A DNA stretch of 64,000 bases from Armatimonadota bacterium (GTDB lineage Bacteria; Armatimonadota; Fimbriimonadia; Fimbriimonadales; Fimbriimonadaceae), in the NCBI GenBank assembly GCA_020161505.1, contig JAIUNY010000006.1:1-64000 (forward strand), written 5' to 3'. How positions within the stretch are numbered: the first letter of the stretch is position 1; every line of letters begins with the position of its first letter. Positions 14,220 through 33,077 of this stretch are shown piece by piece. The position numbers were made by a program, and so were the translations under genes. Below the pieces are notes generated by a model. The model was not told the origin of the DNA, searched no databases, and was given only the letters and a program-made list of their open reading frames with translations.

Positions 14220-14265
14220 TGGTCGGGGCGACAGGATTCGAACCTGCGACCCCCTGCTCCCAAAG
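14220..14265. repeat. Left attachment site (attL), tRNA-Pro 3' fragment
   Basis: 46 bp identical to 33001-33046. It covers the CCA end, acceptor 3' strand, T arm, variable region and anticodon arm up to the anticodon loop (minus strand), then diverges. It lies 32 bp after the GH52 stop codon and is not a functional tRNA because the 5' half is absent. The 115 bp up to the next gene hold no feature I can identify. Confidence 0.95.
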
Positions 14266-14380: not shown

Positions 14381-14896
14381 CTAAAGAGGCCACTTTCCAG
14401 AAAGTCGCTCCACAACAAATCGATCCCGCTGGATGTCCGAGAGAGCTGTCGTCCTATTCCCAGTTCGCACATAAATCGTATGCGTCTGCTCGCCCGACTG
14501 AGACTTCTCCCGCAAATACGTTACGCCAGCGGCAGGCTTCACGAAAATTCGGCACACCCATCCCCCGGACGGGTTCACAAACTGCATCGTTACTTTTCCG
14601 ACCGGAAGCGGAAATAGGCATTTGACAATCGCCTCCTGCAAGAGGAGTTCAAATTGATCGAGATGATCTCGGTCGAAAAGCTCGTGGAGCTCGGCATCAA
14701 TCCCCGAGGGCTGTCCGGAATTATCTACACCGATTCTGAGTTCGCCGCCCTCCGTGTTCAGGAAGGCGGCGATCGTCTTCAGCACTCCCAACCTTAGCTT
14801 TGGATCCCTCGACCCCGTCCGAGAATTCCAGATGTAGGCAGCCTTGTTTTCAAGCGTCTGCCCTTCTGGCTTGGAGAGATCAGGAAGTTCGTGCAT
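14381..14896 (-). CDS. Schlafen AlbA_2-type putative nucleic-acid-binding protein
   Basis: The 171-residue protein matches the Schlafen AlbA_2 (divergent AAA_4) domain. The TLENKAAYIW segment holds the conserved Glu and Lys near residues 15-18. The core TIAAFLNTEGGELRIGVDN (about 41-60) is followed by SGID. AlbA_2/Schlafen domains bind or cut RNA/tRNA or DNA, and in bacteria they are often attached to defence or regulatory proteins. Here it stands alone, without the usual helicase or HTH C terminus. It is the last gene of a minus-strand cassette, 7 bp after the 142-aa gene. It may be the effector of that cassette (inference). Confidence 0.75.
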   Translation of the reverse strand: MHELPDLSKPEGQTLENKAAYIWNSRTGSRDPKLRLGVLKTIAAFLNTEGGELRIGVDNSGQPSGIDAELHELFDRDHLDQFELLLQEAIVKCLFPLPVGKVTMQFVNPSGGWVCRIFVKPAAGVTYLREKSQSGEQTHTIYVRTGNRTTALSDIQRDRFVVERLSGKWPL

Positions 14897-14903
14897 TTTT
14901 GCC

Positions 14904-15332
14904 CTAGAAATGCTTCATGCGAACCGTAAAACTCTGGCTTTTAGTCACTCCGTCTTCGAGGAAAGCGAACTCGCCTCGTAAGTAAGTGTATTGCCTTTCG
15001 GAGTACCCTTTGCCAATCAGCCTGAAAAACCGGATCAGCCCGAGTTCAAAGCTGAAAGGGCCAGATCGCGAAATCTCTGAGGCACCCCAGTCAATCGTTT
15101 GATCTAGTAGGCTTACTTCTGTCAGCACTCCATCTACGATATCCAGGGCATATTCCTCAAATTCGGCCACTCCCAAAAAGTTGACGATTCCCTCGGTGAA
15201 GATCTCACCGGGAAGTTCCTGTCCGACCTGACCCACGATCTCGACCATTCCTAGCCCAAAGCGGTACTCAGGATTTGTTGGGTTGACATCAACAGGTGGC
15301 GGAACGATATCTACACCATAACCATTTGGCAT
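14904..15332 (-). CDS. Hypothetical island protein (142 aa)
   Basis: I recognise no family. The protein is acidic and hydrophobic-rich with no signal peptide. Predicted strands (RFGLGMVEIVGQV, ALDIVDGVLTEVSLL, FSFELGLIRFFRLIG) suggest an all-beta or alpha/beta domain. A clear AGGAGA Shine-Dalgarno lies 8 nt before the ATG. It is 42 bp downstream of the STAND ATPase and 7 bp upstream of the AlbA_2 gene, so the three are very likely one operon. Its position between a sensor-like ATPase and a nuclease-like domain makes it a candidate adaptor, regulator or antitoxin. No sequence motif decides between these. Confidence 0.75.
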   Translation of the reverse strand: MPNGYGVDIVPPPVDVNPTNPEYRFGLGMVEIVGQVGQELPGEIFTEGIVNFLGVAEFEEYALDIVDGVLTEVSLLDQTIDWGASEISRSGPFSFELGLIRFFRLIGKGYSERQYTYLRGEFAFLEDGVTKSQSFTVRMKHF

Positions 15333-15374
15333 CTATTTACTCTCCTTTGGTGAGCGATGAATCGCTTCACTCGA

Positions 15375-18026: not shown

Positions 18027-18101
18027 CGGACATGCTGTGCACCTAGCCCGGCCATGCCGTTACCCTTGGGTAAGGATATAGCGGGCGAACAATATTGTCT
18101 A

Positions 18102-18710
18102 TCAAGTGCCGGCGATTGTTGCTTCGAATGCCTTAAACGACGCGGATCGTCGAAGCTTGGTCAGCTTAGCTTGGCTGAACATAGCCGCATACTCCGGCCC
18201 CGTAGGCGGTCGATTACAGCGAAGATAGAACCATTTATGCAGCCGATGCTTCGGTCTGTCTATAGTGTCTGGTTGGTTCGAGCCTGAGATGCTCGGCATC
18301 GAGCCACGTCCGATGTTTCTCAACATCGAGGAAACCACCGAGGCATCCGTTAAGAGCCATGCTTCTAGTTCCCGCCGAGAACAAACCGTGAAAATGTTTG
18401 CAGGCGGATGTCCGGCATCGTTGATTCCATTCCAAGCGATTGCTTCGCAGGACGCCTGATCCGCATCGAGATCGCCACTCCACGGGGGGCAGTTATCCCA
18501 AACAATTACCACTCGCTGACAGCCTGAAGCGCGCAAAGCAGCAACATGGTTGTTAGCTTCCCGCAACACATCAGGCTTACTTCCGCCCGCTACCACGACC
18601 GGTTCGCGAGAAATCCCCTGTTCCTCTGCAATCCGCAGGCATAGAGCCCGGATGGCGTGTACATCACCGGCATCTTCATTTGAGCCTTCAACGACAAAGC
18701 CGATCCTCAC
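18102..18710 (-). CDS. DUF4276 (TOPRIM-like) protein
   Basis: The 202-residue protein begins MRIGFVVEGSNED, with the TOPRIM-type Glu after a beta strand. It continues with VVIVWDNCPPWSGDLDAD, carrying acidic residues, then RRELEAWLL. This is the layout of DUF4276 proteins, commonly encoded next to OLD/RecF-like ATPases. Its start overlaps the stop of the 405-aa ATPase by 4 bp. By analogy with two-component OLD/TOPRIM nucleases it is probably the nuclease or nucleotidyl-handling partner of that ATPase. Activity is not established from sequence. Confidence 0.8.
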   Translation of the reverse strand: MRIGFVVEGSNEDAGDVHAIRALCLRIAEEQGISREPVVVAGGSKPDVLREANNHVAALRASGCQRVVIVWDNCPPWSGDLDADQASCEAIAWNGINDAGHPPANIFTVCSRRELEAWLLTDASVVSSMLRNIGRGSMPSISGSNQPDTIDRPKHRLHKWFYLRCNRPPTGPEYAAMFSQAKLTKLRRSASFKAFEATIAGT

Positions 18711-19924
18711 TGAAGTTGCCTCGCGGCCTCGGATAAGACTCCCATCGTGTAGAGACGTCCAGGGCTGAAATGATCCCGAAACCCTTCGACGTGGCTGCTC
18801 TCAGAGGGTCTGAGAAAGTGTGGCGCTCCCTCCCGACGCTGAACAAAGAGAACTTGATCCAAATCAACCTGATCAAGAAGATGCGGCGAGTGAGTTGTGG
18901 CGATGACTTGAAGCTTCTTTGATCTGGTGAGGAATTTGATCTCATCCATCACAAGCCCCAGGGTACGTGGGTCAAGGCCGTTCTCGATTTCTTCAATGCA
19001 AAGAAGAGTCGGAGGTTGTGGGCGTCTCAACGCAATCAAAAGAGCTACCAACCGAATAGTTCCAGTAGAGAGCATCCATCCCGGAACTGTATATCCACCT
19101 TCATCAAACTCAATGAAACGACTGGCGATAGCGCCTAAGTCCTGCCTTGGCTCCACTCGTTCACCATAGCCCAGAATGCTTCGCATGGTCTCATCGATAG
19201 ACCAAAAAGCTCGTTGTTCCTCTTCGGAACCATTCGCGAGACGATGGAGAGCCTCAGCGACATCCGACCCGTCGCGGTTCATTGTGTTGACTCGAACATC
19301 AAGGCGCTTAGTAACCGGCAGCCCCATTATCTCTGGGACAAGCCCGAGCATCTGCCAGTGAATGAAGAAGCGGCCCAGTTCTTGTTCCAAGAGCGTTCGT
19401 TCCAGGGGCAATCTTGATGATTCCAGCTTCTGCTTGCTCCCAGACTGGATGCCTTCAACAATGCAATCAAGGTGCCGAAACTTGGACCAAGCTCCTCCAA
19501 TCGATACCAGCTCGTCCGCAACGCGAACCCCTTCAGAATCTCCGTACTTTGCGAGCTCACAGCGAACTTGATAGGCAGAACCGGGCCGAATAGCGTCGGT
19601 CGTGCTCCCATAAACTCGTCCCGCCGCACTAAATTTCAGTCGTTCGGATACCTTGTTCAAGTTCGTTTGCTTAGACAGCTTCCCTTTTTTCCGACCCTTG
19701 TGCACAATGTGTTCGATGGCCTTTGAGCCTCTGAAGGTTTCGTCGAGCGGAGCCGTTGCTAGGCTCCGGAGCAACTCAATGGCTTCAATCAAACTGCTTT
19801 TCCCGGATCCATTGTTTCCAATTAGCAACGTGAACGGACTCAACTCGATTTTTCCAGAATCTACGATCGACTTATAGTTGTTGACTCTGATCGATCTCAG
19901 CGGCAACCAATTGCTTGTGGCCAT
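18707..19924 (-). CDS. AAA family ATPase, RecF/OLD-like (AAA_21)
   Basis: The 405-residue protein has an ABC-type ATPase core. The start LRSIRVNNYKSI leads into Walker A IGNNGSGKSS (about 36-45). Walker B and the catalytic Glu are in LLCIEEIENGLDP (about 305-317), and the H-loop is in VIATTHSPHLLDQV. There is no long coiled coil, so it is of the AAA_21 class rather than SMC or RecN. It overlaps the methylase by 1 bp upstream (TAATG) and the DUF4276 gene by 4 bp downstream. It probably powers or regulates the operon's DNA-targeting complex, as in helicase-methylase-ATPase systems. Confidence 0.88.
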   Translation of the reverse strand: MATSNWLPLRSIRVNNYKSIVDSGKIELSPFTLLIGNNGSGKSSLIEAIELLRSLATAPLDETFRGSKAIEHIVHKGRKKGKLSKQTNLNKVSERLKFSAAGRVYGSTTDAIRPGSAYQVRCELAKYGDSEGVRVADELVSIGGAWSKFRHLDCIVEGIQSGSKQKLESSRLPLERTLLEQELGRFFIHWQMLGLVPEIMGLPVTKRLDVRVNTMNRDGSDVAEALHRLANGSEEEQRAFWSIDETMRSILGYGERVEPRQDLGAIASRFIEFDEGGYTVPGWMLSTGTIRLVALLIALRRPQPPTLLCIEEIENGLDPRTLGLVMDEIKFLTRSKKLQVIATTHSPHLLDQVDLDQVLFVQRREGAPHFLRPSESSHVEGFRDHFSPGRLYTMGVLSEAARQLQ

Positions 19925-22900
19925 TATGCGATTCTCCCCGCTAAAACGGAGCGGTAGGCAGCGAGTCCGGCGTCTTTGACGCCTGAGTCAACGAGGGGGA
20001 AAGTAGAGAGCACATGTTTGAACTCTTCCTCTTGCAGACCATATAGATGAGCAACTAGGGCGTCCAGTTCGGACCGTAGGACAGACCGAACGTGAGGCTC
20101 CGTTGCAGCGAGCGACCTAGCCCAAGGGCACTGACCCGGTTTGGGGTTGGGCGCCGAGGGCTCCAGGCCGATCTCTGCGTCAACTTCATTCCATAGATCG
20201 GCGAACGCCTCGGTGGTGCAGATCAGCCGGGCCGCGCGACGAACGATGGGGGCGAAGTGCGGGTCCGCCTTACTAAGGCGCGGCACCGGAATTTGATAGA
20301 CGAAGAACATTGTTAGCTGAGTCGCTACCCGTTGTCGCAATGCGTAATCCACCGTGAACGAACTCATCAATGCCGAAAGAAGCAGCAACTCAGATTCGGA
20401 CATAGCATAACCTTCTCGCTTCGATGCATTCAGGCTGTGCCCATAAAACACACCCTTGGGCAGAATTGAGCAGACCATTGTGCGTTCATTCGTGTTGCCA
20501 GTAATCGACCGGTGGGCGAAACGGTAACGCTGGTAGTCCAGCACCTGGCCCTTATCCTCCGTGCGTCCCAGGATCGACTTTCGACCGACCTTCTCATCGA
20601 CGAAGTATCGGCCCTCCGCGTACTGGTGGGTGAAGTGCCAAATCATCTTGCCTTCGTACAGCACGAGCTTGCCTGGCCCGTTGTCTCCGAAGAGCGCCGC
20701 ATCGTTGGTCATATCGAACTCCCGGGTCAGCTTCAGTTGCCAAGCACCCGGAACTGCGTCCCCCAGTGCAGGAAAACACATCATCTTTTCCGAGATTTGG
20801 GCATCCAGCGGGTTCTGGAACTCTACGACGGACCAAGTGTCCGGAGAGAGCGACTTCACCGTCTCCATCGTAATCCGCATCCCGACTGACTCCGGGAAGC
20901 GGCTCAGATCCGAGACATCATGCCGCATAAATGCGGCAGGAAATGCTTCCGTATGCCCGCCCTTGCGATAGCTGAGGACGACGAACTTGAAGCTCCGATG
21001 AACACCTTCAAAAATCTCCTTTCGGTTCTCGAAGCAGAACAGCCCAGTCACCGTCGCGTTCGAAAAGAGCAACTTCCTGAGACCCGTTGTTCCGAGGTCG
21101 CTATAGATGCCACTCGGAACGACGATCCCGCAAAGGCCATCCGGACGCAGCAAGTGATAGCACCGCTCGATGAAAAGCTTATAAAGGTTGACATCCGTTC
21201 CCGTCTTCTTTCCGCCAACAATCGCGGACTGGTTGGAGTATTCAGGTGCCGCCCGGAAGTATCCGCTCTGATGGGGGAACTGGGAGAGGTAATCCAAGTA
21301 CTCCGCCCGAATGGAATCGTCCTTGACCAAATCCTTGAGAAGGGCATCAAACTCTTTTGCCGTCGAAAGTCGCCGATTGGCATCCGGCGAATAGGGATAG
21401 CAAAACTCGCGCGAAATCGGCTTCAGAGTTTCCCAAGGTGGGTTGGTGATGATCGCATCAAACCCTCCGCGCATGTTGAGAATCTCGCCGAACTCAAACC
21501 CCCAGTGGAACGGCTCAAGATCCTCGATATCCGCTGCTGTCACCGCGCGCTTTTTCGGCTTGCCCAACTCCCACTTTCTCTCGTCCCAAGTCGCTTGCTC
21601 AAACTTGACATCCAGGTCTTCGAACGCCTGTTGCAGAATGTCCGCCAGCACCGGGCGGGCTTCTGCTTCTTTGTCCTCAACTTCCTTCCGAAGTGAGACT
21701 AGATCGTCGGTCAGGGCACCGGCATAGCGATAGTTGCGGACTGCCCGGTTGCGTTCATCAAGCAATTGGCGGTAAGTCTTGTCCGGAGCGAAGAGGCTCG
21801 CCGTCGTGTTCCTCAATCGCTGAGTGGCTTCGTATTCGGCATCATTCACCCGGGTCAACCCGATCAGCGAGTTCCCCGCCAAGATGTTGAAGTCGATGTT
21901 TGGCAGCGGTTCAAGATCATCTACCGACTTCGCCGACGCGACGAGGGTCATGAACAGCCGGAGCTTGGCGATTTCAGTGGCTTCCTCCATGAGGTCGACC
22001 CCGTACAAGTTGTCGGTGATGATCGCTTTTTTGATCGCATACTGCTCTTTGTCTGGGTTGACCTTCCACTTGGTGGTCAGGTGGTGATCGAGCCACTCTT
22101 TGTCGTGAAAGCGAAGCCAGCCGATGACAGCGGAGTAAACCGTGATCAAGGTTTTCAGTGCCGCCACGAGGAACGCCCCAGAGCCAACTGCGGGGTCCAA
22201 GATTGTTAGGCTGGGGAGCACATCGTGCAAAAGTTTTCGTGCGGTGATCTTGTCCAATCGCACCAATAGTTCGGGCACAGAATCGAACTTCTTGCCCGGG
22301 GGTAAACCATCAATATCGGGCTCACTAATCCGGTCGAGAATCAGCCGGTAGGTCGTCTGTTCACACAGATACTCCGTTATTTCGGGCCGAGTGTAGTAGG
22401 CACCAAACTCCTTCTGGTTGATGTACTTTTCAAAGATGTAACCCAGCACATCGGGATTGATGTCGTCATCGCTTTCCCCGGGGATATCGTTGAGGTTCCA
22501 GGAATAGCGACCGAAGAGTGCGAGCAGCTGCTCAAACGCCTCGTCCGGGACCTCGATTTTGTGTTTCTGCTCCAACTTGTGCGGAAGGAATAAGCCGCCG
22601 TTCAGGTACTTCACCTGGCCGGTCAGTTGGATGGCTTCGGCAGAACGCTTCGATTCCGGTTTGGCGAACGCCTCAAAGAACAGCGCATGGAGAAACTCGG
22701 AGTAGTAGCGATCCTTGCCCTTTTCTTTGCTCTGGGCCAGCTTCCTTTCGAGGTACTCCCCGTCACCATTGTCGATGAAGAACTTCTTCTGAAGGAAGTA
22801 GATGAACATCATCCGGTTGAGCAGGACACTGGCGTACCACCGCCGGTCTTGGTCATCCCGAATGCCTCGGATCAAGTTCGTGAAGTGAACGCGTTGCTCA

Positions 22901-23427
22901 TCGTAGTCCTTGAAGAACTTCTTGATAACCCGCTCGATGTCGAGTGCCCGCTGAACCTTCTTTGCGGCTTCGAGCAGCGCGAGCTGGCCTGAGTCATCCA
23001 GGTCGCTCAGATCCACCGCCATCGCGGCAATTTTTGAGATAAAAAGGTCTCCCGGCTGTCCCTTGAAAAAGTGGTGCTCGCGGGGTAAGCGCTTGTTCCC
23101 GTCACGCTTGACCCAGAACCAAAGGCTCTGGGTTCGCTTTTGATCCACGAAGATCAGCACATGCTCGAACCGAAGCTTGGCGATTTCTTTCGAGACGACT
23201 TGCCGTATGGCTCGGGAAGGTATAGTCCCCGATTCGCTTTGGACTTCAAACGCCTCAATCCCGCCAAGAACGCCCACTCCGCGAAAAGTAAACGCCTCAC
23301 CACTGACGAGGAGCCGTTCAGACTTCCGCTGACTCGGGTTGTTCCACCCGAGCTCTTCGACGAACAGATTCTGAAACCTAAACTCTTGAAGAAGATCGCG
23401 AACTCTACTTACGTTGAGCTTGCTCAT
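19924..23427 (-). CDS. Eco57I-type DNA adenine methyltransferase of a defence operon
   Basis: The 1167-residue protein has an amino-methyltransferase core. Motif I is DPAVGSGAF (411-419). FGAYYTRPEITEYL lies just before it, and motif IV NPPW is near residue 660. A long C-terminal target-recognition-like region follows. The N-terminal ~165 residues contain beta strands with acidic residues (GIEAFEV, HVLIFVDQ) that could be a nuclease-like domain, but I see no complete PD-(D/E)xK motif. An AGAGGT lies 6 nt before the ATG. It overlaps the helicase stop by 4 bp. It probably marks self DNA in a restriction-like system with the helicase and ATPase. Confidence 0.9.
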   Translation of the reverse strand: MSKLNVSRVRDLLQEFRFQNLFVEELGWNNPSQRKSERLLVSGEAFTFRGVGVLGGIEAFEVQSESGTIPSRAIRQVVSKEIAKLRFEHVLIFVDQKRTQSLWFWVKRDGNKRLPREHHFFKGQPGDLFISKIAAMAVDLSDLDDSGQLALLEAAKKVQRALDIERVIKKFFKDYDEQRVHFTNLIRGIRDDQDRRWYASVLLNRMMFIYFLQKKFFIDNGDGEYLERKLAQSKEKGKDRYYSEFLHALFFEAFAKPESKRSAEAIQLTGQVKYLNGGLFLPHKLEQKHKIEVPDEAFEQLLALFGRYSWNLNDIPGESDDDINPDVLGYIFEKYINQKEFGAYYTRPEITEYLCEQTTYRLILDRISEPDIDGLPPGKKFDSVPELLVRLDKITARKLLHDVLPSLTILDPAVGSGAFLVAALKTLITVYSAVIGWLRFHDKEWLDHHLTTKWKVNPDKEQYAIKKAIITDNLYGVDLMEEATEIAKLRLFMTLVASAKSVDDLEPLPNIDFNILAGNSLIGLTRVNDAEYEATQRLRNTTASLFAPDKTYRQLLDERNRAVRNYRYAGALTDDLVSLRKEVEDKEAEARPVLADILQQAFEDLDVKFEQATWDERKWELGKPKKRAVTAADIEDLEPFHWGFEFGEILNMRGGFDAIITNPPWETLKPISREFCYPYSPDANRRLSTAKEFDALLKDLVKDDSIRAEYLDYLSQFPHQSGYFRAAPEYSNQSAIVGGKKTGTDVNLYKLFIERCYHLLRPDGLCGIVVPSGIYSDLGTTGLRKLLFSNATVTGLFCFENRKEIFEGVHRSFKFVVLSYRKGGHTEAFPAAFMRHDVSDLSRFPESVGMRITMETVKSLSPDTWSVVEFQNPLDAQISEKMMCFPALGDAVPGAWQLKLTREFDMTNDAALFGDNGPGKLVLYEGKMIWHFTHQYAEGRYFVDEKVGRKSILGRTEDKGQVLDYQRYRFAHRSITGNTNERTMVCSILPKGVFYGHSLNASKREGYAMSESELLLLSALMSSFTVDYALRQRVATQLTMFFVYQIPVPRLSKADPHFAPIVRRAARLICTTEAFADLWNEVDAEIGLEPSAPNPKPGQCPWARSLAATEPHVRSVLRSELDALVAHLYGLQEEEFKHVLSTFPLVDSGVKDAGLAAYRSVLAGRIA

Positions 23428-26400
23428 GGATTTACCTCTACCAAGCCAAGGGAGCAGATGATGCGCGGCTCTCGATGCTCACGGTCCTCTTCGACAATAC
23501 AGAGACGGTCTTCACTCCTCAAGGCGATGCAAAGTTCGGCGAGAGATTCGTCGGCGATCCCGGCCTTGAGTTGGCGGTTGAGGGAGTCCGTCGCGGTCTG
23601 CCGAAGCGGATAGCGGTAGATGTCCTCGATGGTTCGAAGCAGTTCCTCGCTTTCGAACAGGGTGCCCTTGATCTTCTCGCCGTGAGCTTTGAGCCGCTCA
23701 TAGGTGCGGAATCTCGCGCCGGAAGGCTTGCCGAGTTGCCCGCCGATCTTGGATTCCTCCTCGACCATCCGCTCGACGCCGAGCCTCACGATATCGTGAT
23801 GGTTCGCCGCCTTGGGAGCGGCGGGAGTATCGGGTTTGCAAGCGGCGGCGCGGAGAATCGCCAGGGGCGACTCGGTGACCGCCTTGCCCGTCTGATCCAC
23901 CCAAGACAAGGCGTCTCCGCCGTCGGCAGTCCGCAAGTAGACCAGCGCGCCGTGGGGCTTGCTCGGCTCGGCGGCATGAGCCTTCGCCGAGAAAACGACG
24001 TCGGGAAGCGATTCGATGACGGCTTTGAGGCTCGGATCGGCGTCGGTCGCGTTCTTCCAGATTTGAAGGGCGTGGGAGGACAGATCGACCTCGCTGTCGT
24101 CCTCTCCGTCGAGGACGCCGGACTTCTCGTTGTAGAGGTCGCGATACTTGTCATCGACTTTCAAATCTTCGAAGAATTGCTCATCGGCGCCGACGACTTC
24201 AGCGTTTTCGGTAAGGCGTTGCCGAACCCTACCGCGAAGGTTGATGATGCGGTCCACGCCGTCCATGGGATAGAAGCTGTAGCAGTAAATCTGTTCGTGC
24301 TTCTGGCCGATACGGTCCACACGACCGGCGCGCTGGATGAGCCGGATGATGGCCCAGGGAAGATCGAAGTTCACGACGACGTGAGCGTCTTGGAGGTTCT
24401 GACCTTCAGAGAGAACGTCCGTCGCGATCAGGACGCGAAGTTCTTCGTCTGACTTGATGAGTTCCCGCTTATCGTTGCTGACAGGGCTGAATCGCCACGC
24501 CAGTCGGGTAGGGTTCTCGCTGTCGCCGCTGACCCCCTCAATCTGCTTGACCCCAAGCTTCTTCAGCGCGTCGGTCAAGTAATCGACGGTATCCGCGAAC
24601 TGCGTGAAGACCAGAACCTTCTCGTTCGGGTGAACGACCGTGAGCAGTTCATGAAGCTTCTGAAGCTTCTTGTCGAGCGAGGCGTCCCACGAGCCATGAG
24701 CTTTGAGAATGCCGCATAGGGCGTCACTGTCGGCCTTTAGGTCCTTGAGGAGGGACTCGGCGAACAGGCCAGAGCGAAGCCATTTGAACCGCCGCTTGTA
24801 CTTGCTCGCGTATTGATCGTACACCTCCTTCGCCTTGGCGTTGAACGCTTCCGGGTCGTGCATTGGTGCGCGAACGCTTGGCGCATCGGAGTCGGTCAGG
24901 TCCTCGGTCTCCGCGTCGAAGATGCTTCCGGTGATGGCCGTATCGTCGCTGTCGATGTCCACAACGTCGGTGTCGAGCATCGAAGGATCGGAGGTGCCGA
25001 TTGGAATCGGCAACCCGGCTTCGATGGCATGGATGTAGATGTAGTTGCGGAGGATGTGCCGCTCAAGCGATTGGATGAAGGCGAGGCCGCTGCTTTCTAG
25101 CCGCTTGAAGAGATTGGTCCGGCAGAATCCCATGAGCCGCTTTCCGGCCCGTCCTAGGTCACTCAGAACCTTGGCTTCTGCTGGCGTCGGCGGCGTGTGG
25201 GGCTTGCTGGCGACGTAGTTACCAAGGCCATAGCGCGGAAGATTTAGCTTGTTGATCTCGCGTTCCACGGCGAGGCTGAACAGCTTGGCGTACGGATCGG
25301 TCTTGCTCTTTTCGTCGATCTCGAACTTGACCGTTCGCGGGATGCGATCCGGGAAGTAGGTCCGCTCGCCATTCTCCAGCAGAAGGTGTTTCCGCCCGTT
25401 CTGCTCGTCGGTCTTAGCGTAGTGTTCCTTGATGAATCCGCGCGTCCTGCGGACCATATAGAGCCGCATGAGTTCGCGCCAGTCGTCGGCGTAGGGACTC
25501 TTCTCGAACGCCGCAAGGCTACGAAGCGGACACTGATGCTTCGCTTGGAACTGGACCTCGCCGACCTCGCGGATGAGCATGTCCGGGCGAACGCCGATAT
25601 CTTGATGCTCGGGCACGAAAAGCCGAAGCTGAGCACCGAGGTCGAGGTACGCTTTGTTGTAGGGCGTCGCGCTTAACAGGATGCAGCGAGATTCGTTCTT
25701 GTTGATGTACTCCTGGATCGCTCGGTAACGGCTTCCTTCGCGGTTCCGCAAGTTGTGGCTTTCGTCCAGGATGATTAGCCTGTAACGGCGCATCTCGTGA
25801 AGTCCGCCGTAACGCTCTTCCGTGCCGTCCGCACCCTTGCGTGTCTTGGGAGCAACCTCGGTGATGGAAACGACCTTCGCGCGAAGCCGATACCGATGCG
25901 CGTATTCTTCCCACATCGGCTTGAGGTTCTTCGGGCAGATGATAAGCGTTTCGAGGCCAAGATCGTCCTCAAAGATTCGAGCAAGAGCGGTCGCCATGAG
26001 GGTCTTGCCGAGACCCACGACGTCACCGAGGATGACGCCCCTTCGCCGATCGTTATTGAGGTGATGCGCCGCAATCTTTACGGCGGCAACCTGATATTCG
26101 AAGAGTCGATTGCCGAAGTCGGCAGGAATCTTGAACTCAGATAGGCCGGTTCGCGCTTCCTGGGCAAGGTGATAGGCGATATTCAGATAGATGTGATACG
26201 GCGGGATGACGGTTGGCCTGGCCCAACTCGCCTCGATAATCTCAATGAGCTCCTGCGAGATGTCTAGGCACCACTTATCTGCCCAACGATCCTCGAACCA
26301 CTTGGCGAGCTTCGCCGACGCGTCGCCTTCAACAACGTCAACGTTCAATTCGAACTGCTTCATTAGCCCAGCAAAGGTCAAATTCGAGCTACCGACGTAG

Positions 26401-26867
26401 CCCACGATTGGCGCCGCGATGTCTGCCCGGTGAACAAGATAGAGCTTGGCGTGTAGACTATTCCGAAGAAATAGCTTCACGACGAGCTGTCCAGTTCGAA
26501 GCTGATTTGCCAGGCGCTGGAGATTCTTCTCATCGAATTCGGTAGGTGCACCGATCGTGAGTTGCTTTCGAAACTCCTCGGCCATTTTCTTCCGAAGCTG
26601 AATAGCTTTCGCATTGTCGATGCCGTCCTCCCGAAGGAGGCTGTACACTTGGCGAACCTCTTCTTCGCCCATAGTCTGCATCCCGACTAACAGGCGGCAA
26701 CTCCCCTCATTTCCACCTGGGAACCTGTCTTCCACCACTTGGCCCAGGCGATTCCACCCCCTGAGATTAAAGTAGCCAACGCAAAAGTCCGCGCTCGTCG
26801 CTGTACGAAGCATGTCCTCCAGCGCTGGCATGAACTGCAATTCGATGTTGTCGTAGATTCGCGGCAT
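23424..26867 (-). CDS. SNF2-type helicase with N-terminal phospholipase D domain
   Basis: The N-terminal ~250 residues form a PLD-like nuclease module with one HKD motif (LHAKLYLVHR, then GSSNLTFAGL). The superfamily 2 helicase core follows: motif I GDVVGLGKT, motif II LDESHN, motif III LLSATPYNK and motif VI LIQRAGRVDRIGQ. A central ~250-residue insertion separates the RecA-like lobes. I start at 26867 (MPRIYDNIELQF); an upstream ATG (27098) would add 77 residues of low-complexity, non-conserved look that overlap the leader hairpins. It is the first gene of a four-gene overlapping operon. PLD-helicases of this kind occur in DISARM-like and helicase-methylase-ATPase defence systems. It probably translocates on and cuts invading DNA. 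Confidence 0.88.
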   Translation of the reverse strand: MPRIYDNIELQFMPALEDMLRTATSADFCVGYFNLRGWNRLGQVVEDRFPGGNEGSCRLLVGMQTMGEEEVRQVYSLLREDGIDNAKAIQLRKKMAEEFRKQLTIGAPTEFDEKNLQRLANQLRTGQLVVKLFLRNSLHAKLYLVHRADIAAPIVGYVGSSNLTFAGLMKQFELNVDVVEGDASAKLAKWFEDRWADKWCLDISQELIEIIEASWARPTVIPPYHIYLNIAYHLAQEARTGLSEFKIPADFGNRLFEYQVAAVKIAAHHLNNDRRRGVILGDVVGLGKTLMATALARIFEDDLGLETLIICPKNLKPMWEEYAHRYRLRAKVVSITEVAPKTRKGADGTEERYGGLHEMRRYRLIILDESHNLRNREGSRYRAIQEYINKNESRCILLSATPYNKAYLDLGAQLRLFVPEHQDIGVRPDMLIREVGEVQFQAKHQCPLRSLAAFEKSPYADDWRELMRLYMVRRTRGFIKEHYAKTDEQNGRKHLLLENGERTYFPDRIPRTVKFEIDEKSKTDPYAKLFSLAVEREINKLNLPRYGLGNYVASKPHTPPTPAEAKVLSDLGRAGKRLMGFCRTNLFKRLESSGLAFIQSLERHILRNYIYIHAIEAGLPIPIGTSDPSMLDTDVVDIDSDDTAITGSIFDAETEDLTDSDAPSVRAPMHDPEAFNAKAKEVYDQYASKYKRRFKWLRSGLFAESLLKDLKADSDALCGILKAHGSWDASLDKKLQKLHELLTVVHPNEKVLVFTQFADTVDYLTDALKKLGVKQIEGVSGDSENPTRLAWRFSPVSNDKRELIKSDEELRVLIATDVLSEGQNLQDAHVVVNFDLPWAIIRLIQRAGRVDRIGQKHEQIYCYSFYPMDGVDRIINLRGRVRQRLTENAEVVGADEQFFEDLKVDDKYRDLYNEKSGVLDGEDDSEVDLSSHALQIWKNATDADPSLKAVIESLPDVVFSAKAHAAEPSKPHGALVYLRTADGGDALSWVDQTGKAVTESPLAILRAAACKPDTPAAPKAANHHDIVRLGVERMVEEESKIGGQLGKPSGARFRTYERLKAHGEKIKGTLFESEELLRTIEDIYRYPLRQTATDSLNRQLKAGIADESLAELCIALRSEDRLCIVEEDREHREPRIICSLGLVEVNP

Positions 26868-27032
26868 AGTTAATCGGCTTGCCCCCCCTAAGTTTTTGCC
26901 CCGAGCCCTACCCGCAAGGAGTTGTCGCTCTGGCACGCCATTAGAGTACCACTCACTAAAGGCATCCTGGAAAGCGCAAAGACGAGATCGCTCGTTCGGG
27001 CCGGGCATAGACGTTTCTGGGAAGAATGCGAA

Positions 27033-27115
27033 GGGAGGCAGATGCCTCCCCCGCAAGTCGTGAAGTGCCCGAGTCGGAATGGGCGAATCTCGCCGCACTC
27101 AAGAACTCGGGCACT
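27033..27115 (-). promoter_or_regulatory. Structured leader upstream of the defence operon
   Basis: The 267-bp space between the ArdC-like gene and the helicase holds two strong hairpins. The first is an 11-bp perfect inverted repeat (AGTGCCCGAGT 27064-27074 with ACTCGGGCACT 27105-27115). The second is an 8-bp perfect repeat with a 2-nt gap (GGGAGGCA 27033-27040 with TGCCTCCC 27043-27050). They could end the upstream transcript, attenuate the operon, or be an operator. There is no U-run strong enough to call a terminator. Confidence 0.5.
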
Positions 27116-27134
27116 CGCTTTAGCCCAGCACTCA

Positions 27135-28052
27135 TCACTTGACTTCAGAGAGTTCAGCGACCTGCTCGAAGAGATAGTCGCTGGCTCTTTGAGCCAAGGA
27201 AGCTGCTGAGAACAGAGCTCCAGGATCGTTTTCGAGCCGGAAGAGCCAGGTTGCAAGGTAGGGCGCATGATCCTTGCGAGGATCCAGACCCATCCCAAGC
27301 CGGGCACAGGTGAAGGCTGCGCCAAGTTCTGCTACCAGTTCTTCCATTGCGTAGGATTCACTCCCAAATCTTCCCGTCAAATTCCTTTTGAGCCGGGATT
27401 CGTGGCCTGTCCAGTGGATATGTTCGTGAGCAAGAACGCTGCAAAGAGCTTTCTCGCTTGGAAATCTCCATTTGTCGGGCATCCGAATCGAGTCCGTGAT
27501 CCCAGAGTATCCGGCAACAGTTCCGCAGAATCTGACATCGGAAGGAATCTGGGAGAAGAAGGAGAAGTGATCGGATGCTTCTGGCTCCGCGAAGGAGTCC
27601 CTTATGAATTCATCACGAATCGTTTTGAATCCTTCCACCTGATCTGCATTGAAGACGTGGAAGAGTTTCGCGTAAGGACGGCCCTTCGGACGATCTTCAA
27701 TCCGCTCTTCTTCCGGATCTTTCCCAGAATAGGTGTCCCAGAAGACGATGGGTGTGGAACGCTCTCCTGCACGGACGTAGCATCCAAGCTCAATCCACTG
27801 CTGATAGGTTCCCCACCAAGGGGTTCGGTATTCCCGGAGAATGCCTCGTCCCCAAAGAGAGAGGATATTCACGCCTCTGTAGGCTTTGCGGGAATGGACG
27901 TTGCGCGGGAGTCCAAGCTCGGCGCTGGAGTTCCACGGCATGTTGAAGTCCGCAGCACCTTCGCGGATCGCCCGGACGATGTCCTTGGTGATTTTGAAAG
28001 AAAGGTCGCGGAAGTTGGACGAAGTGACTGGACTTGTAATCGAGTTGATCAT
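27135..28052 (-). CDS. ArdC-like antirestriction / zincin protein
   Basis: The 305-residue protein matches the ArdC family. The N-terminal ssDNA-binding-like domain reads NMPWNSSAELGLPRN, YRGVNILSLW and TYQQWIELGCYVRAGE. The C-terminal zincin-like metallopeptidase domain has HEHIH in SVLAHEHIHWTGHESR and a downstream Glu in AMEELVAELGAAF. ArdC proteins come from mobile elements and protect incoming single-stranded DNA from host restriction. Shine-Dalgarno GAGGA lies 8 nt before the ATG. Presence beside a restriction-like operon in the same element suggests roles in element entry rather than in the defence operon itself. Confidence 0.85.
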   Translation of the reverse strand: MINSITSPVTSSNFRDLSFKITKDIVRAIREGAADFNMPWNSSAELGLPRNVHSRKAYRGVNILSLWGRGILREYRTPWWGTYQQWIELGCYVRAGERSTPIVFWDTYSGKDPEEERIEDRPKGRPYAKLFHVFNADQVEGFKTIRDEFIRDSFAEPEASDHFSFFSQIPSDVRFCGTVAGYSGITDSIRMPDKWRFPSEKALCSVLAHEHIHWTGHESRLKRNLTGRFGSESYAMEELVAELGAAFTCARLGMGLDPRKDHAPYLATWLFRLENDPGALFSAASLAQRASDYLFEQVAELSEVK

Positions 28053-28161
28053 TTTTCAGTTCCTCGTGGGCACCGTTTGCCCACGCCACACAGGCCGCGG
28101 TGCATTGATGAAGAACTGACTGGCTCGACGCGAAATCTAGACGCCACTCCCCGAAGGGGAC

Positions 28162-28195
28162 AAAAAAGCCTGGTTTGGCGTTTCGCTAAACCAGG
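28162..28195 (-). terminator. Intrinsic terminator (minus strand)
   Basis: Stem CCTGGTTTGGC (28169-28179) with GCTAAACCAGG (28185-28195), one G-T pair, loop GTTTC. On the minus strand it is followed by TTTTTT (28162-28167). It stops transcripts of the polymerase-like gene before the ArdC-like gene. Confidence 0.8.
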
Positions 28196-28270
28196 GACAC
28201 TACCGAAGGAAGTCGCAAGAACCCCCTGGGGGTAAGTTTTTGACCTCCCCCCTCTTTCACCTACAAATAG

Positions 28271-28339
28271 GGCCAGAAACCGGGTGGTTTCTGGCCTGTT
28301 TGCGCCACTTTCAGAGAGTTTTGCGTAAGGTTCTCTGAA
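28271..28339. repeat. Two further hairpins after the polymerase-like gene
   Basis: GGCCAGAAACC (28271-28281) and GGTTTCTGGCC (28286-28296) form a perfect 11-bp stem with a GGGT loop. TTCAGAGA (28310-28317) and TCTCTGAA (28332-28339) form an 8-bp stem. With the terminator at 28162-28195 this makes three hairpins in the 300-bp gene-free stretch 28053-28353. Neither has a U-run, so an origin, mRNA-stability or protein-binding role is possible. Confidence 0.6.
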
Positions 28340-28353
28340 GGCTGCGTGGTCTT

Positions 28354-29796
28354 TTACTCGGTCTTGCCAAGCGTCGTGATCTCAAAACTTGAGTTGATCT
28401 CAAGCTCTCCTAGGAGCTTCCTTCCAATCTCAAGAGCTTCTTCCAGCATAGCGGGGTCGTGATCTGGCGGGATGATGAAGCCATCATGCAGCCAGGCGAT
28501 CACGGGCACCTTCTTCTTGAGCAGATGGATCACCAAGGGAGCAAGGACTTTCAGTTCGTAAGACTGAGCTTGAGACCCTGCCATCGATCGAGCACTGGTG
28601 AGGGTGAACAAACCAGAGTGCTTCCCTTTCGGACGCTTAGCGAGCAATTCACAGAGATTTCGGTCGTACGCATCCAGAACCGTATCGGCAGCTCGAAGGT
28701 TTTCGAGGTTTTCTTCGGATCGCTGGAAGAGCTCTGTGATCAGTTTTGTGTCGAGGAAGTCCTCCCACTGATCAAGAGTCATTTCACCGGTCTCCAGGGC
28801 TCGCTTGCGAGTGTTGTAGACCGTCGCGCCGTACATCAGGGAGTAGAACGCCGTCTTGAGAACGGGCTTGGGAGCGCCAGATTCTGCGGTCAATCGCTCC
28901 CAGAATCCTTCCTTCACGTACTCATTGATCGACTCAATTCCGCAAAGTTTGGCTTGAACCGCCGCCTGAAAGTGCTTCAGATCAACCTGGATGCACCCCG
29001 CAAGAAGCTGCTCCCGATCAGCCGATTTCGTTGTTTGCAAGCCGCCTCCCACGGTGTAGAGTCGCAGCGTTCGCTCAACTGCCTTGTAGCATTGCTTTGG
29101 ACTAAGGAAGAAGTCCGAGAATGACCTGAGCCGTGACCGAACCTGGTGCCGATTCGCTTTGCCAAGGTCAACTTGCAGACCAAGTTCGTTTGCCCGCTCT
29201 TGAAGCTCCGCAGCGTCAAACTCCTGTGCGTTGAGCAGTTGCTGAAGCTCCTTGACCTCTTCTACTGGAGAGAGTGCAACCTCGGCCGCCTTTTCCTCCA
29301 AGGGCTCCCCAGACCGAACGTCGATCAGCTGGGAAAACCAGGCCTCTGGCCCAGGAAATCCTTCAGGCAATCGAAGCCGCTCGATTCGGAGTGGTTCATC
29401 GAAGTCTGGCTTTGACGCAACCAGGGTGACCCCCGGGAGCCCAGAAATCGATGCTGCCGTGAACGCAATTCCTGGTACCGCCGGAAGCTGAGACTTCATG
29501 CGCGAAGCCGATGGAAGTTCCGAGCAAAATGTCAGAACCGCAGCAAGCTCAGGATATTCAGACCCCTGATCCTGAAACCACGTCAGAATTTTCTCGGGCA
29601 CAAGAAATGGCGGATAGACGCGTGCATCCGCTCGGATCCCCCTCCCTCTTCCTGGAGCCGCGAAGTCTCTCTTCCGCAAGTCACGCAGCGCGCGTGAGAC
29701 CTTGCTTCGAGATAATCCCGTACGATCAGCTATTTTGGAAGCATCCGTGACTCCCTGCTGAAAGAGATGCAAGACGGAGGATATGATCGTTGCCAT
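28354..29796 (-). CDS. Winged-helix protein with family A / T7-like polymerase palm
   Basis: Residues 1-45 form a winged helix-turn-helix (GVTDASKIADRTGLSRSKVSRALRDL without the first residues would span 15-40). The C-terminal half shows right-hand polymerase motifs in order: motif A IQVDLKHFQAAV (Asp272); motif B K314-x7-Y322-G323 in VLKTAFYSLMYG; a Gln/Lys segment SQAQSYELKVL; and motif C WLHDGF (His437-Asp438). The spacing of motif B equals that of Pol I and T7 RNA polymerase, and motif C HDG is between Pol I HDE and T7 HDS. At 480 residues it lacks room for 3'-5' or 5'-3' exonuclease domains. It is probably a replication initiator, primase or polymerase of the element. I know of no named family. 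Confidence 0.62.
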   Translation of the reverse strand: MATIISSVLHLFQQGVTDASKIADRTGLSRSKVSRALRDLRKRDFAAPGRGRGIRADARVYPPFLVPEKILTWFQDQGSEYPELAAVLTFCSELPSASRMKSQLPAVPGIAFTAASISGLPGVTLVASKPDFDEPLRIERLRLPEGFPGPEAWFSQLIDVRSGEPLEEKAAEVALSPVEEVKELQQLLNAQEFDAAELQERANELGLQVDLGKANRHQVRSRLRSFSDFFLSPKQCYKAVERTLRLYTVGGGLQTTKSADREQLLAGCIQVDLKHFQAAVQAKLCGIESINEYVKEGFWERLTAESGAPKPVLKTAFYSLMYGATVYNTRKRALETGEMTLDQWEDFLDTKLITELFQRSEENLENLRAADTVLDAYDRNLCELLAKRPKGKHSGLFTLTSARSMAGSQAQSYELKVLAPLVIHLLKKKVPVIAWLHDGFIIPPDHDPAMLEEALEIGRKLLGELEINSSFEITTLGKTE

Positions 29797-29851
29797 GATG
29801 TTAGACCATTAACATCTTACGGGGGTGGTATAAGTTAATAGTCCCACCCCC
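29797..29851. promoter_or_regulatory. Paired inverted repeats at the start of the polymerase-like gene
   Basis: GATGTTA (29797-29803) and TAACATC (29810-29816) touch the start codon at 29796. GGGGGTGG (29821-29828) and CCACCCCC (29844-29851) enclose an AT-rich loop. The arrangement suggests an operator for the protein's own winged helix, or a replication-initiator binding site. Confidence 0.5.
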
Positions 29852-29860
29852 ATTAGATCG

Positions 29861-30622
29861 TTAGTTGGTCACCTCCACCGTTGTAGCAGCTCCCTTCTTC
29901 TCTTTCTTCAATGCAACCGTGAGACCAACGTACGAGGCAGTAATCACGTAGCCATATCCCTCGCAGAGATCCCTCATTCCATTGATTTCTTCCCAGAATT
30001 CATCAAGCCGCTTCTGGACTGGCTCAAGTTCCTCGGGGAGACTATCAGGATTAATGCATCCCGACTGCCGAGCCGCCTCAATGATTCGCGCCCGAAGGTC
30101 GAGATCCTTGTTGTAGAGAGCCAGGGTGATCCTCCTTGATCGGCCTCCGACGATTTGCGTGAGCGCGCCGTCGTCATATGTAAACGGACCGAACTGGAGA
30201 TACTGCTCTCGTGTCCCGACCGCTTTCGCATTGAGTCGCTTGAGCAAGGATTGCCACGTTGGCAAGTCGTCCGCAGTAACACCCGAAGACTCCTTTGCAT
30301 CCACAGCCCCTGTCAGGGTCTCACCGTACTGTTGCTCGGATACCGACGCATCTTCACTCTTGGCTTCGCGCGCCTCCTTATCGGCAACCTCGGCAGAACC
30401 TTCTTGGGGCGAAGCGCTTGCACTCGTCTCAACAGGCTTGGGAGCAGGCCGAGCCGATGCGTCTGCCTCACGCGCTTGAGTTTCTCGTTGCTGACCGGTC
30501 GCGGTCAGCGGATCGTGGCCCACCATTTCGTCGTGAGCAGAAGACAAGTTGTTTTCGAAATCATGTGTGTTATTCACTATTCTTTTTTTCTCCAAGAGAT
30601 TTGCCAGATCGCATCCTTTCAT
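29861..30622 (-). CDS. Hypothetical island protein with disordered middle
   Basis: The 253-residue protein has an Ala/Glu/Ser/Pro-rich, probably disordered segment at about 40-120. A folded C-terminal domain (about 125-245) follows, with FGPFTYDDGALTQIVGG and an acidic helix PEELEPVQKRLDEFWEEI. I recognise no family. The start is uncertain: ATG 30622 has no Shine-Dalgarno, and a GTG at codon 16 follows a GGAG. It lies 64 bp upstream of the polymerase-like gene on the same strand, so it may be its accessory or co-regulated partner. Confidence 0.6.
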   Translation of the reverse strand: MKGCDLANLLEKKRIVNNTHDFENNLSSAHDEMVGHDPLTATGQQRETQAREADASARPAPKPVETSASASPQEGSAEVADKEAREAKSEDASVSEQQYGETLTGAVDAKESSGVTADDLPTWQSLLKRLNAKAVGTREQYLQFGPFTYDDGALTQIVGGRSRRITLALYNKDLDLRARIIEAARQSGCINPDSLPEELEPVQKRLDEFWEEINGMRDLCEGYGYVITASYVGLTVALKKEKKGAATTVEVTN

Positions 30623-30675
30623 GCGAGTGGCTTGCTTGGGAGACGGCGCTCGAAGTGTCCTGGATTACACGCAAA

Positions 30676-30701
30676 ACTTGCACCTGAAGAGCCCTGCAAG
30701 T
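30676..30701. promoter_or_regulatory. Inverted repeat in the divergent spacer
   Basis: ACTTGCA (30676-30682) and TGCAAGT (30695-30701) lie in the ~200-bp spacer between the divergent 253-aa and 348-aa genes. This is a plausible operator for the HTH protein encoded at 30822. Confidence 0.4.
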
Positions 30702-30821
30702 GTAAAAATTCCTGCCCAGCTGTTGATGCAAGATCGACCCGTCATGTAAAAATGGGGACGAGGTGTTTCGAGCCGCTCGTCAAGGACTTTTACTAGGACC
30801 CTATCCGGGGAGAGAGAAGAG

Positions 30822-31868
30822 ATGAATCACAACGATGAACAAATCAGTTTCGCCAGAGCAGCGGAGATTCTCAAATGCAGTCGGCAGAACATGACGACCT
30901 GGACGAAGCCGAAGAGTGCGCAAGATACTCAGTCCCTATTGACGCGGGGCGTTAAGGGCAGTTGGACAGTCTCCAAGAATCACTGCACTGCTTACCGGCT
31001 CATGGCGGACTTTCTTCAGTACGACAAGCCTCGTGTCGAGATGTTCACGCGCGATGCCGCGCTCCAGTACATTCTCCGGCTTCATAATGCGCTCGACGTG
31101 AACCAAAGGCACATCGCTGAACTTCAGCGAGAAGTTCAGCCGGGATCGAGTGTGACTGCGGACTCCCCTCCCCAGTCCGGTGTGAAGAATGTAGGTGAGG
31201 CAGCTCCGAAGACAGGGATCGATCAATCTGCAACTTCGGCAAGAACAGACGTGACACAATCCGAAGAGATGAGAGCAGTCGAACCATCGGAGCAACCGAG
31301 CGAGATGCGCCCAGTAGCGGAAGTGATCAAGCCCCAGCCCGAGTCAGATCAACAACACGACGCCCACGTAAAGCACCTGCAGGGCATGATCGCTCGTGGC
31401 TACGTCCCTACGCCTGAGGAAAATCTCCTCCTGCCCGTGCTTAGTCGAGCAAGTCTGTCAATCCATGACGTTGCGCGGTTGACGTCTTGCCCCTTGGCAT
31501 TCGTCGAAGAGATTGCCGCGCAAGGTTTGCTTACCCGGTATCAGACCGGGTACGACCCGATGCAAGTGCTTTCAAAGCGACGAACTTTTGCTCGTGAAGT
31601 GGTCGTTCTTCGGTATCGAATGCAAGATGATAGCGACTTGGATGACGAGGACTATCAAGACTTCGACCCTGATGAGCGCATCTTGGTCGGAATGAGAGTT
31701 TGGGATCTGGGAGCTGGAGACATGACCGGGACAAGTCGCGGATTCATCTATGAAACCGAAGTGCGGATGCTGGACTGGGAGACGCTGATCTCGTACATGG
31801 CAAGTTTGACGAACGCCAGCGTCCCCGATATCGTGTCCTACGCCGCTCAGCGGTTTTGCAAGTCTTAG
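30822..31868 (+). CDS. HTH-containing hypothetical protein (excisionase/regulator-like)
   Basis: The 348-residue protein begins with a MerR/excisionase-like helix-turn-helix (ISFARAAEILKCSRQNMTTW, about 8-27). A Gln/Ser/Pro-rich linker (about 110-180) follows. A second helical module SLSIHDVARLTSCPLAFVEEIAAQ without its last four residues lies near 210-230. The purine-rich GGGGAGAGAGAAGAG directly before the ATG is a strong ribosome-binding site. The end overlaps the convergent integrase by 4 bp. Position and the first HTH suggest an element regulator or recombination directionality factor. Its length is far above that of typical excisionases, so that role is tentative. Confidence 0.62.
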   Translation: MNHNDEQISFARAAEILKCSRQNMTTWTKPKSAQDTQSLLTRGVKGSWTVSKNHCTAYRLMADFLQYDKPRVEMFTRDAALQYILRLHNALDVNQRHIAELQREVQPGSSVTADSPPQSGVKNVGEAAPKTGIDQSATSARTDVTQSEEMRAVEPSEQPSEMRPVAEVIKPQPESDQQHDAHVKHLQGMIARGYVPTPEENLLLPVLSRASLSIHDVARLTSCPLAFVEEIAAQGLLTRYQTGYDPMQVLSKRRTFAREVVVLRYRMQDDSDLDDEDYQDFDPDERILVGMRVWDLGAGDMTGTSRGFIYETEVRMLDWETLISYMASLTNASVPDIVSYAAQRFCKS

Positions 31869-32878
31869 ACTTGCTGCTGAGCAACGCCAAGCTGGCTGAT
31901 CGGGCTCCATTTTTCATGCGCCACCCGAAGATCGTTTTCATCGATCTTGAGGTACCGCTCCAGCGTCCGGATGTCCGCATGACCCATCAGGTCACGAAGC
32001 CGGTAGAGATCACTCCCATTTCGGAGCATCAGAATGGCGAAGGTACGTCGAATCTTGTGAGGAGAGACCGAGAACCCCAGTTCCCTTCCCAGTGTCTTGA
32101 AGATCATCTGAATTCCCGAAGTTCCAAGAGGTCCAAACTGACCAATCCAGAGCTGGGATTCAGCAAGGTCTGGACGCATCCTTACGTACTGCTGCAGATA
32201 CCTCAGAGAGATTGAGCTCAGAAAGACGATTCGATCCTTCTCACCTTTCCCGCTTCGAACGAAGACCCTCCCAGTACGAAGATCCACATCCCCGATCCGG
32301 CAGCTTGATGCTTCGGCCGCCCTCATGCCCGTGTCCAGCAAGAAGTAGAACAAGGCAAGGTTTCGCATCTCAAACAGTTGAAGCCCGGTTCGTTGACTCC
32401 TTGGAGTCTTCTCCCAGCCACTCAGAGACTGAATCACGCGCTGGATCTGATCCGCCGTAAGCGGCTCAAGGATTTTCTTGGGAAGCCTTGGCGCTTTGAG
32501 AGCCTTCACAGGATTGGTCTCGATGATCTCAGAGATCTCAAGAAACTTGAAGAAGCTCCGAAGGACCCGAAATGCTCCGTGAACGTAGCTGGAGCTGCGC
32601 TTTCCTCGTGGCCCTGGTTGCTGATGCCAAATGATGTGCTGGCGCAAGATCTCCGGAGTCAGTTCCTGGATGTCGCGTGCGCCGATCTGCTCGCACCAGG
32701 ATGCAAGACGGGCCAGAAAGAATGAATAGACCTGGATGGTTCGGGGGGAAAGTCTGCGGGCGGTGCAGTCCTCAAGATACTGCTCGATGAGCTCCGAAAT
32801 GAGCGTCGTTTGCCAGGGCCGATTTTGTGCAAGTAGTGTCATGACTGTTCTCGATGAAACAGCCACTTTGAACCTCAT
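31865..32878 (-). CDS. Tyrosine recombinase / integrase
   Basis: The 337-residue XerC/D-like protein has a SAM-like core-binding N domain (about 15-105) and a catalytic domain. The catalytic residues are visible: Arg in LDTGMRAAEA, Lys in GKGEKDR, His-x-x-Arg in SPHKIRRTF, His in LMGHADIRT and Tyr in LERYLKI. It lies 122 bp from the tRNA-Pro that forms the attachment site and is transcribed away from it, the standard layout for tRNA-targeting integrative elements. It probably catalyses integration and excision between attL and attR. Confidence 0.93.
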   Translation of the reverse strand: MRFKVAVSSRTVMTLLAQNRPWQTTLISELIEQYLEDCTARRLSPRTIQVYSFFLARLASWCEQIGARDIQELTPEILRQHIIWHQQPGPRGKRSSSYVHGAFRVLRSFFKFLEISEIIETNPVKALKAPRLPKKILEPLTADQIQRVIQSLSGWEKTPRSQRTGLQLFEMRNLALFYFLLDTGMRAAEASSCRIGDVDLRTGRVFVRSGKGEKDRIVFLSSISLRYLQQYVRMRPDLAESQLWIGQFGPLGTSGIQMIFKTLGRELGFSVSPHKIRRTFAILMLRNGSDLYRLRDLMGHADIRTLERYLKIDENDLRVAHEKWSPISQLGVAQQQV

Positions 32879-32887
32879 AGGGAAACT

Positions 32888-32928: not shown

Positions 32929-33000
32929 CTACTACCTAGAAATCAGTAAAACCTGCAGATTGACCAGAAAATTCGGCGGTTTTGAACCTAAATTTGAATC

Positions 33001-33046
33001 TGGTCGGGGCGACAGGATTCGAACCTGCGACCCCCTGCTCCCAAAG
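33001..33046. repeat. Right attachment site (attR) within tRNA-Pro
   Basis: 46 bp identical to 14220-14265; identity ends inside the anticodon loop. Crossover by the adjacent integrase somewhere in this block would excise a circle of about 18.8 kb and leave one intact tRNA gene. Confidence 0.95.
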
Positions 33047-33077
33047 CAGGTGCTCTACCAAGCTGAGCCACACCCCG
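33001..33077 (-). tRNA. tRNA-Pro (anticodon TGG)
   Basis: A complete cloverleaf reads on the minus strand from C1 at 33077. The 7-bp acceptor stem is CGGGGTG with CGCCCCG, and discriminator A73 plus encoded CCA end at 33001. The D arm holds GGCTCAGCTTGGTAGAGC, the anticodon loop is CTTTGGGAG with TGG, and the T arm is GGTTCGAATCC. Its 3' half is the island attachment site, rebuilt by the integrated element. Proline dehydrogenase follows 49 bp away, probably by chance. Confidence 0.97.

Follow-up and report, generated by a model that had tools for sequence, protein, structure and literature searches.

The 480-aa protein encoded on the reverse strand at 28354..29796 of the 64,000-nucleotide stretch of Armatimonadota DNA analyzed here (the window) is most likely the DNA polymerase of an 18.8-kb integrative element and perhaps also its primase. 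Sequence comparison places it very probably within the TV-Pol family, and it probably acts as the element's winged-helix-guided polymerase, extending or making primers. Computed support comes from a family-A fold, catalytic residues that are conserved among homologues, kinship with TV-Pols, and an element bounded by an integrase and att repeats. The TV-Pol family, its mobile-element context, and a proposed primase-polymerase role have been known since 2008 (PMC2579912). Features of the element are, in order along the window:

14220..14265: attL, an exact 46-bp direct copy of the tRNA-Pro 3' part
14381..27098, reverse strand: cargo genes, assigned from family-model matches
27135..28052, reverse strand: ArdC-type anti-restriction protein (ArdC N domain and zincin), in the same place in G001
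28169-28195, 28271-28296, and 28303-28346: three inverted repeats downstream of the polymerase gene, candidates for a terminator, leader, or origin
28228..28252, forward strand: noncoding motif GGGGGTAAGTTTTTGACCTCCCCCC, also in the same interval of the G001 element
28354..29796, reverse strand: TV-Pol-type polymerase gene, 480 aa, an open frame without stops
29797-29803/29810-29816: 7-bp perfect inverted repeat, operator candidate
29814-29828/29844-29858: 15-nt inverted repeat with an 8-bp G/C-rich core, operator candidate
29861..30622, reverse strand: 253-aa protein, directly upstream of the polymerase, without a family match
30822..31868, forward strand: divergent protein of 348 aa, whose N-terminus looks HTH-like by eye
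31865..32878, reverse strand: tyrosine integrase (PF00589, 1e-27)
33001..33077, reverse strand: intact tRNA-Pro (TGG), whose 3' 46 bp (33001-33046) form attR

The element occupies 14220-33046 (~18.8 kb) between the 46-bp tRNA-Pro repeats, and its G+C content is slightly below that of its flanks. Three genomes of the same genus (G002, G003, G004) each carry one intact tRNA-Pro near an orthologous proline dehydrogenase. An Rfam search returned tRNA only. Cargo genes encode a SLFN_AlbA_2 protein, a STAND-like NTPase with TPR repeats, a type IIG restriction-modification methylase, an HKD+SNF2 helicase, and a DUF4276 protein with an AAA ATPase (a HEC-01-like pair). The STAND-like NTPase (883 aa, 15375-18026) adjoins the AAA/DUF4276 pair, which resembles the HEC-01 candidate defense system. 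The divergent 348-aa protein had no Pfam match, and the divergent gene that takes its place in G001 shares no detectable sequence similarity with it. No second recognizable replication protein was found in the element besides the polymerase. The initial annotation had regarded the polymerase as the element's own, and the position of its gene within an integrative element with integrase and att repeats bears this out. An inverted copy of the tRNA-Pro 5' half (32888-32920) sits next to the integrase. In G063 the arrangement is mirrored (L075 13855-13888): the integrase is on the 5' side, and the inverted copy is of the 3' half. The element may carry both tRNA halves for insertion in either orientation.

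A genome search showed that the polymerase ORF is single copy in the host genome. With the 480-aa protein alone as query, Pfam, PHROGs, NCBIfam, and PDB searches returned the winged helix only, residues ~7-54 matching the TrmB (5e-5) and IclR (7e-5) family models, and family-model searches gave no nuclease family match. The polymerase domain was revealed by profiles only. A profile of six homologues reached Taq Pol I (E 9e-4), and one of 13 sequences matched Taq Pol I (8e-8), pol nu (2e-7), pol theta (1e-6), and Klenow (7e-6), the Taq match being in register across motifs A-B-C; a nine-sequence profile also retrieved Pol I-sized genes of Armatimonadota. The resulting architecture is:

residues ~7-54: winged helix, matching several HTH models
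residues ~55-165: linker, poorly modeled
residues ~170-231: thumb
strands 237-239 and 246-248: beta-hairpin, with Arg245 between the strands
residues 261-480: palm and fingers, with D272, K310/K314, Y318, YG322-323, Q411, and H437-D438-G439

Motif A (Asp272), motif B (Lys310/Lys314...Tyr318-x3-Tyr322-Gly323), the Gln411/Glu414/Lys416 helix that sits between motifs B and C, and motif C (His437-Asp438-Gly439) are all present in the order first annotated and conserved in 13 homologues. R245, D272, K314, G323, Q411, E414, D438, and G439 are invariant across these 13 aligned sequences, which share ~20% identity with the 480-aa protein.

Structure prediction, proposed initially as a check, returned a family-A palm fold with VIA Z scores of 17-19. 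In the AlphaFold model of the 480-aa protein, pLDDT exceeded 90 for most of residues 261-480 and was mostly below 50 in residues 43-164. Foldseek placed the model among family-A DNA polymerases, and VIA-align gave Z scores of 18.7 to pol theta, 17.7 to Klenow, and 17.5 to T7 DNA polymerase, over about 280-300 residues (~170-480) with rmsd 3.4-4.2. The family exemplar L028 modeled better (pLDDT 88, pTM 0.85), and its match to Bst Pol I (Z 19.5) starts at the thumb. Since alignment to Pol I begins at the thumb, this is a polymerase family without an exonuclease domain. In the predicted L028 structure, residues 27-105 follow a helix-strand-helix-helix-strand-strand order, which suggests an N-terminal winged helix there as well. 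The motif residues of the polymerase occupy the same alignment columns as those of Pol I, and by that alignment D272 and D438 would be expected to meet in space. A family-A fold is almost certain, and we predict with high confidence that the protein is an active DNA polymerase. Profiles, HTH models, and predicted structure together uphold the original description: a minimal family-A polymerase of 480 aa that begins with a winged helix and has no exonuclease.

TV-Pols were defined by a thumb, a hairpin Arg, two palm Asp residues, an RxxxK fingers motif, and the absence of a nuclease (Iyer, Abhiman, and Aravind 2008; PMC2579912). We compared the family with three TV-Pols, MAP_030 of Microcystis phage Ma-LMM01 and plasmid homologues from Calothrix and Polaromonas, of which the phage is the one source named in the defining paper. 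MAP_030 was chosen by position and motifs and then confirmed by HMM-HMM comparison; a family-profile search of Ma-LMM01 gave no match, and MAP_014 was considered and dropped. On Calothrix plasmid6 (13.7 kb), the TV-Pol gene runs over the record start (L072 12314-13693 plus the start), and the gene table does not list it. HMM-HMM alignment (hhalign, each value from a single comparison) was strongest to TV-Pols (E 2.4e-13, 98% probability), followed by host-phylum Pol I (E 1.8e-8) and T7 DNA polymerase (E 5e-7), the latter two at 92-95% probability, with no match to T7 RNA polymerase (0.5%). The T7-like character first proposed, between DNA polymerase and T7 RNA polymerase, is thus not supported. 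In the tree, the family and TV-Pols fell on one side and Pol I and T7 DNA polymerase on the other (100/99), although branches were long and most inner forks weakly supported. Both comparisons suggested at the outset, HMM-HMM search and phylogeny, place the family nearer to TV-Pols than to Pol I.

Individual alignment columns give the same picture. D272 and D438 align with the metal-binding Asp residues of Pol I and TV-Pols, and R245 falls in the column that holds the Arg in TV-Pols, Pol I, and T7 DNA polymerase. The fingers motif takes the conservative form K310-xxx-K314 in the 480-aa polymerase and R-xxx-K in two relatives. Motif-C HDG and a Gln or His at the Glu710 position are common to the family and TV-Pols; those columns hold HDE and Glu in Pol I and T7 DNA polymerase. 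HDG had been taken for a form intermediate between polymerase classes; it is instead common to known TV-Pols. TV-Pols occur in mobile elements with an integrase, resolvase, or transposase, and such a context, with an integrase, was found at the polymerase locus. Alignment of the N-terminal domains with those of known TV-Pols was not significant, an N-terminal helical domain being a trait of the integrase-linked TV-Pol subset and not of all TV-Pols. No D5-like helicase, fused or adjacent, was found in the 18.8-kb element; hence the polymerase is not placed in the helicase-linked subset, which this helicase defines without defining the whole family. We accept TV-Pol membership because of the HMM-HMM comparison, the motif columns, and the tree.

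Relatives were found in the host family by tblastn, on the Deinococcus peraridilitoris plasmid pDEIPE01, and, by profile search, in further Armatimonadota. None occurred in phage records or in IMG/VR, and a wider scan of genome contigs with two poor peptide patterns was almost empty. Restriction-modification or DISARM genes adjoin the polymerase at eight of the 14 Armatimonadota loci (G000, G001, G028, both loci of G034, G017, G040, and G222), and the systems vary, including type I, type IIG-like, DISARM DrmD/DrmMI, and Mod-type; at the other six, no restriction neighbor was present within the examined stretch. An integrase or serine recombinase lies near the polymerase in G000, G063, G079, G137, G017, G040, and G222. 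Gene order in G001, of the same genus, equals that of the element, with a divergent gene, a 664-aa polymerase, ArdC, a helicase, and a methylase. The G001 ArdC (L074 8541-9530) is split into an N-domain ORF and a metallopeptidase ORF, perhaps by a frameshift. The G079 TV-Pol is truncated and lacks motif A; L076 3580-9147 is a 5.5-kb tRNA-Ala element (47-bp repeat, 98%) that encodes an integrase and a TV-Pol truncated so that motif A is missing. G017 and G040 have FDG or YDG in place of the motif-C HDG. In these two genomes (L083 9023-11199 and L077 8270-10452), an ATPase-like gene, with a P-loop by eye and no Pfam match, overlaps the polymerase start by 4 bp, which suggests translational coupling.

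The noncoding intervals on both sides of the polymerase gene contain repeats. Operators had been proposed at its start, and two inverted repeats do lie there (29814-29858 and 29797-29816), between the 253-aa gene and the polymerase start codon, as operator candidates only; the region 29797..29858 folds better than its shuffles (z -4.2). The three hairpins reported after the gene are present as sequence, two folding much better than shuffles (z -3.5 and -6.6) and the third slightly (z -1.7). Within the window, the pattern GGGGGTN{8,24}CCCCC is confined to two sites, 28228-28252 and 29821-29851, which flank the polymerase gene, a count that is weak because 13 of 100 shuffles gave as many matches. 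Of the two, the downstream site recurs at the equivalent position in G001. The only IMG/VR match to the shared noncoding motif fell within an integrase gene and was regarded as a chance hit.

The 253-aa protein upstream had no family match in the family-model search, and no homologue of it was found in the host family. Its C-terminal half gave a near-ungapped alignment over 110 residues with the N-terminal extension of the G001 664-aa polymerase (z 3.4, 9 of 1,000 shuffles), a score that applies to the chosen sub-region and is not significant over full length; a BLAST comparison was negative. The resemblance is suggestive only and does not establish that G001 has the 253-aa protein fused to its polymerase.

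We propose that the integrase would excise the element as a circle, or that the element would enter the cell in single-stranded form. The polymerase would then be recruited to element DNA by its winged helix, possibly partnered by the 253-aa protein, docking perhaps at the inverted repeats that flank its gene; binding to these repeats is a tentative suggestion. The palm would then synthesize DNA by two-metal catalysis (D272, D438), and the enzyme would extend a primer or make its own, as CcPol-MP of SCCmec does. Participation in element replication or second-strand synthesis is likely. De novo priming, argued by analogy, we put at somewhat below an even chance, and an initiator-primase role would be plausible by analogy with TV-Pols and CcPol-MP. 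CcPol-MP is a precedent for primase activity in which the MP partner, not the polymerase alone, confers priming (PMC7581432), and the TV-Pol relative whose primase activity is proven is found together with a D5-type helicase and an SSB (PMC7581432, PMC10061031). The element has no D5-type helicase or recognized SSB partner, which counts against the proposed mechanism, as do the N-terminal domains that do not align significantly with those of known TV-Pols, the two relatives without the motif-C His, the low model confidence over residues 43-164, and the long branches of the tree. It is unlikely that a single protein serves as initiator, primase, and polymerase, its winged helix reading the GGGGGT...CCCCC sites and its palm priming and copying the excised element without a dedicated helicase.

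Other explanations account for parts of these data. The polymerase could be a primer-dependent gap-filling or translesion enzyme that works with host primase and helicase and does no priming, its winged helix serving only autoregulation. The structurally nearest family-A polymerases are primer-dependent, CcPol without its partner merely extends primers (PMC7581432, PMC10061031), and inverted repeats lie directly ahead of the polymerase start codon; however, a DNA-binding domain fused to the polymerase and a small integrative element without another recognizable replication protein both point to a dedicated role, and we regard the gap-filling explanation as improbable. About as improbable is a working part of the neighboring restriction or defense island, for example one that fills in or copies ends made by helicases and nucleases. 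Restriction-modification or DISARM genes do flank the polymerase at more than half of the Armatimonadota loci, and polymerase, ArdC, SNF2 helicase, and methylase are consecutive on one strand in G000 and G001. Yet the neighboring systems differ while the polymerase family stays constant, which fits a carrier, not a component; such neighbors are absent from the stretch examined at six loci; and TV-Pol genes are known from mobile elements with integrases and from hot spots of restriction-modification operons (PMC2579912).

Loss of catalysis, with the protein kept as a DNA-binding regulator, might be suspected from the truncated G079 copy without motif A and from the varying motif-C His in two relatives, but it is very unlikely for the 480-aa polymerase, whose catalytic residues are all intact and whose invariance in 13 divergent homologues indicates selection on catalysis. 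A T7-like RNA polymerase or RNA primase is the least probable identity. T7 RNA polymerase is a member of the same superfamily, and the motif-A Glu that helps Pol I exclude ribonucleotides is Gln here; against this stand the hhalign probabilities (0.5% to T7 RNA polymerase versus 92-98% to DNA polymerases and TV-Pols) and Tyr318, which is the DNA-polymerase form. The absence of T7 RNA polymerase from the structural match lists was given no weight.

Within TV-Pols, only the CcPol branch has been tested in the literature cited here. The Armatimonadota/Deinococcus branch is compact, is missed by standard family models, and has a 480-aa member with its own DNA-binding domain; it thus offers a simple protein for testing how a family-A palm could start DNA synthesis. 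A further lesson is that such a polymerase recurs in the restriction-rich integrative elements of Armatimonadota, a phylum that has received little study.

The Armatimonadota/Deinococcus group is a divergent TV-Pol branch, with a winged helix recognizable in its 480-aa member and an element without a helicase. Like TV-Pols such as MAP_030, the polymerase has a minimal core (thumb, beta-hairpin Arg, two palm Asp, R/K-xxx-K fingers), HDG, Gln or His at the Glu710 position, no nuclease domain, and a lambda-type integrase and restriction genes close by. Unlike known TV-Pols, the group is missed by Pfam, NCBIfam, and PHROGs models at their cut-offs, and the 480-aa member combines a TrmB/IclR-type winged helix with an element lacking a D5 helicase. 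It shares the thumb-palm-fingers fold and active-site residues with Pol I (Klenow, Taq) but lacks the 5' and 3' exonucleases, has HDG for HDE and Gln for the motif-A Glu, and is an element-borne 480-aa polymerase with an N-terminal winged helix. The CcPol-MP/PolA-SSB primases of SCCmec and Bacillota elements, a proposed TV-Pol subset, are likewise family-A polymerases of mobile elements, and their neighbors similarly include another small protein and a site-specific recombinase (PMC7581432, PMC10061031). In contrast to CcPol-MP, the Armatimonadota element has no recognized OB-fold SSB partner or helicase, and CcPol-type polymerases, which retain the exonuclease domain in part or in full, are much nearer to housekeeping Pol I. 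Foldseek also matched the palm part to replication proteins of virophages (Zamilon, Qinghai Lake virophage), where it is linked to a D5-like helicase (for Sputnik, PMC2579912).
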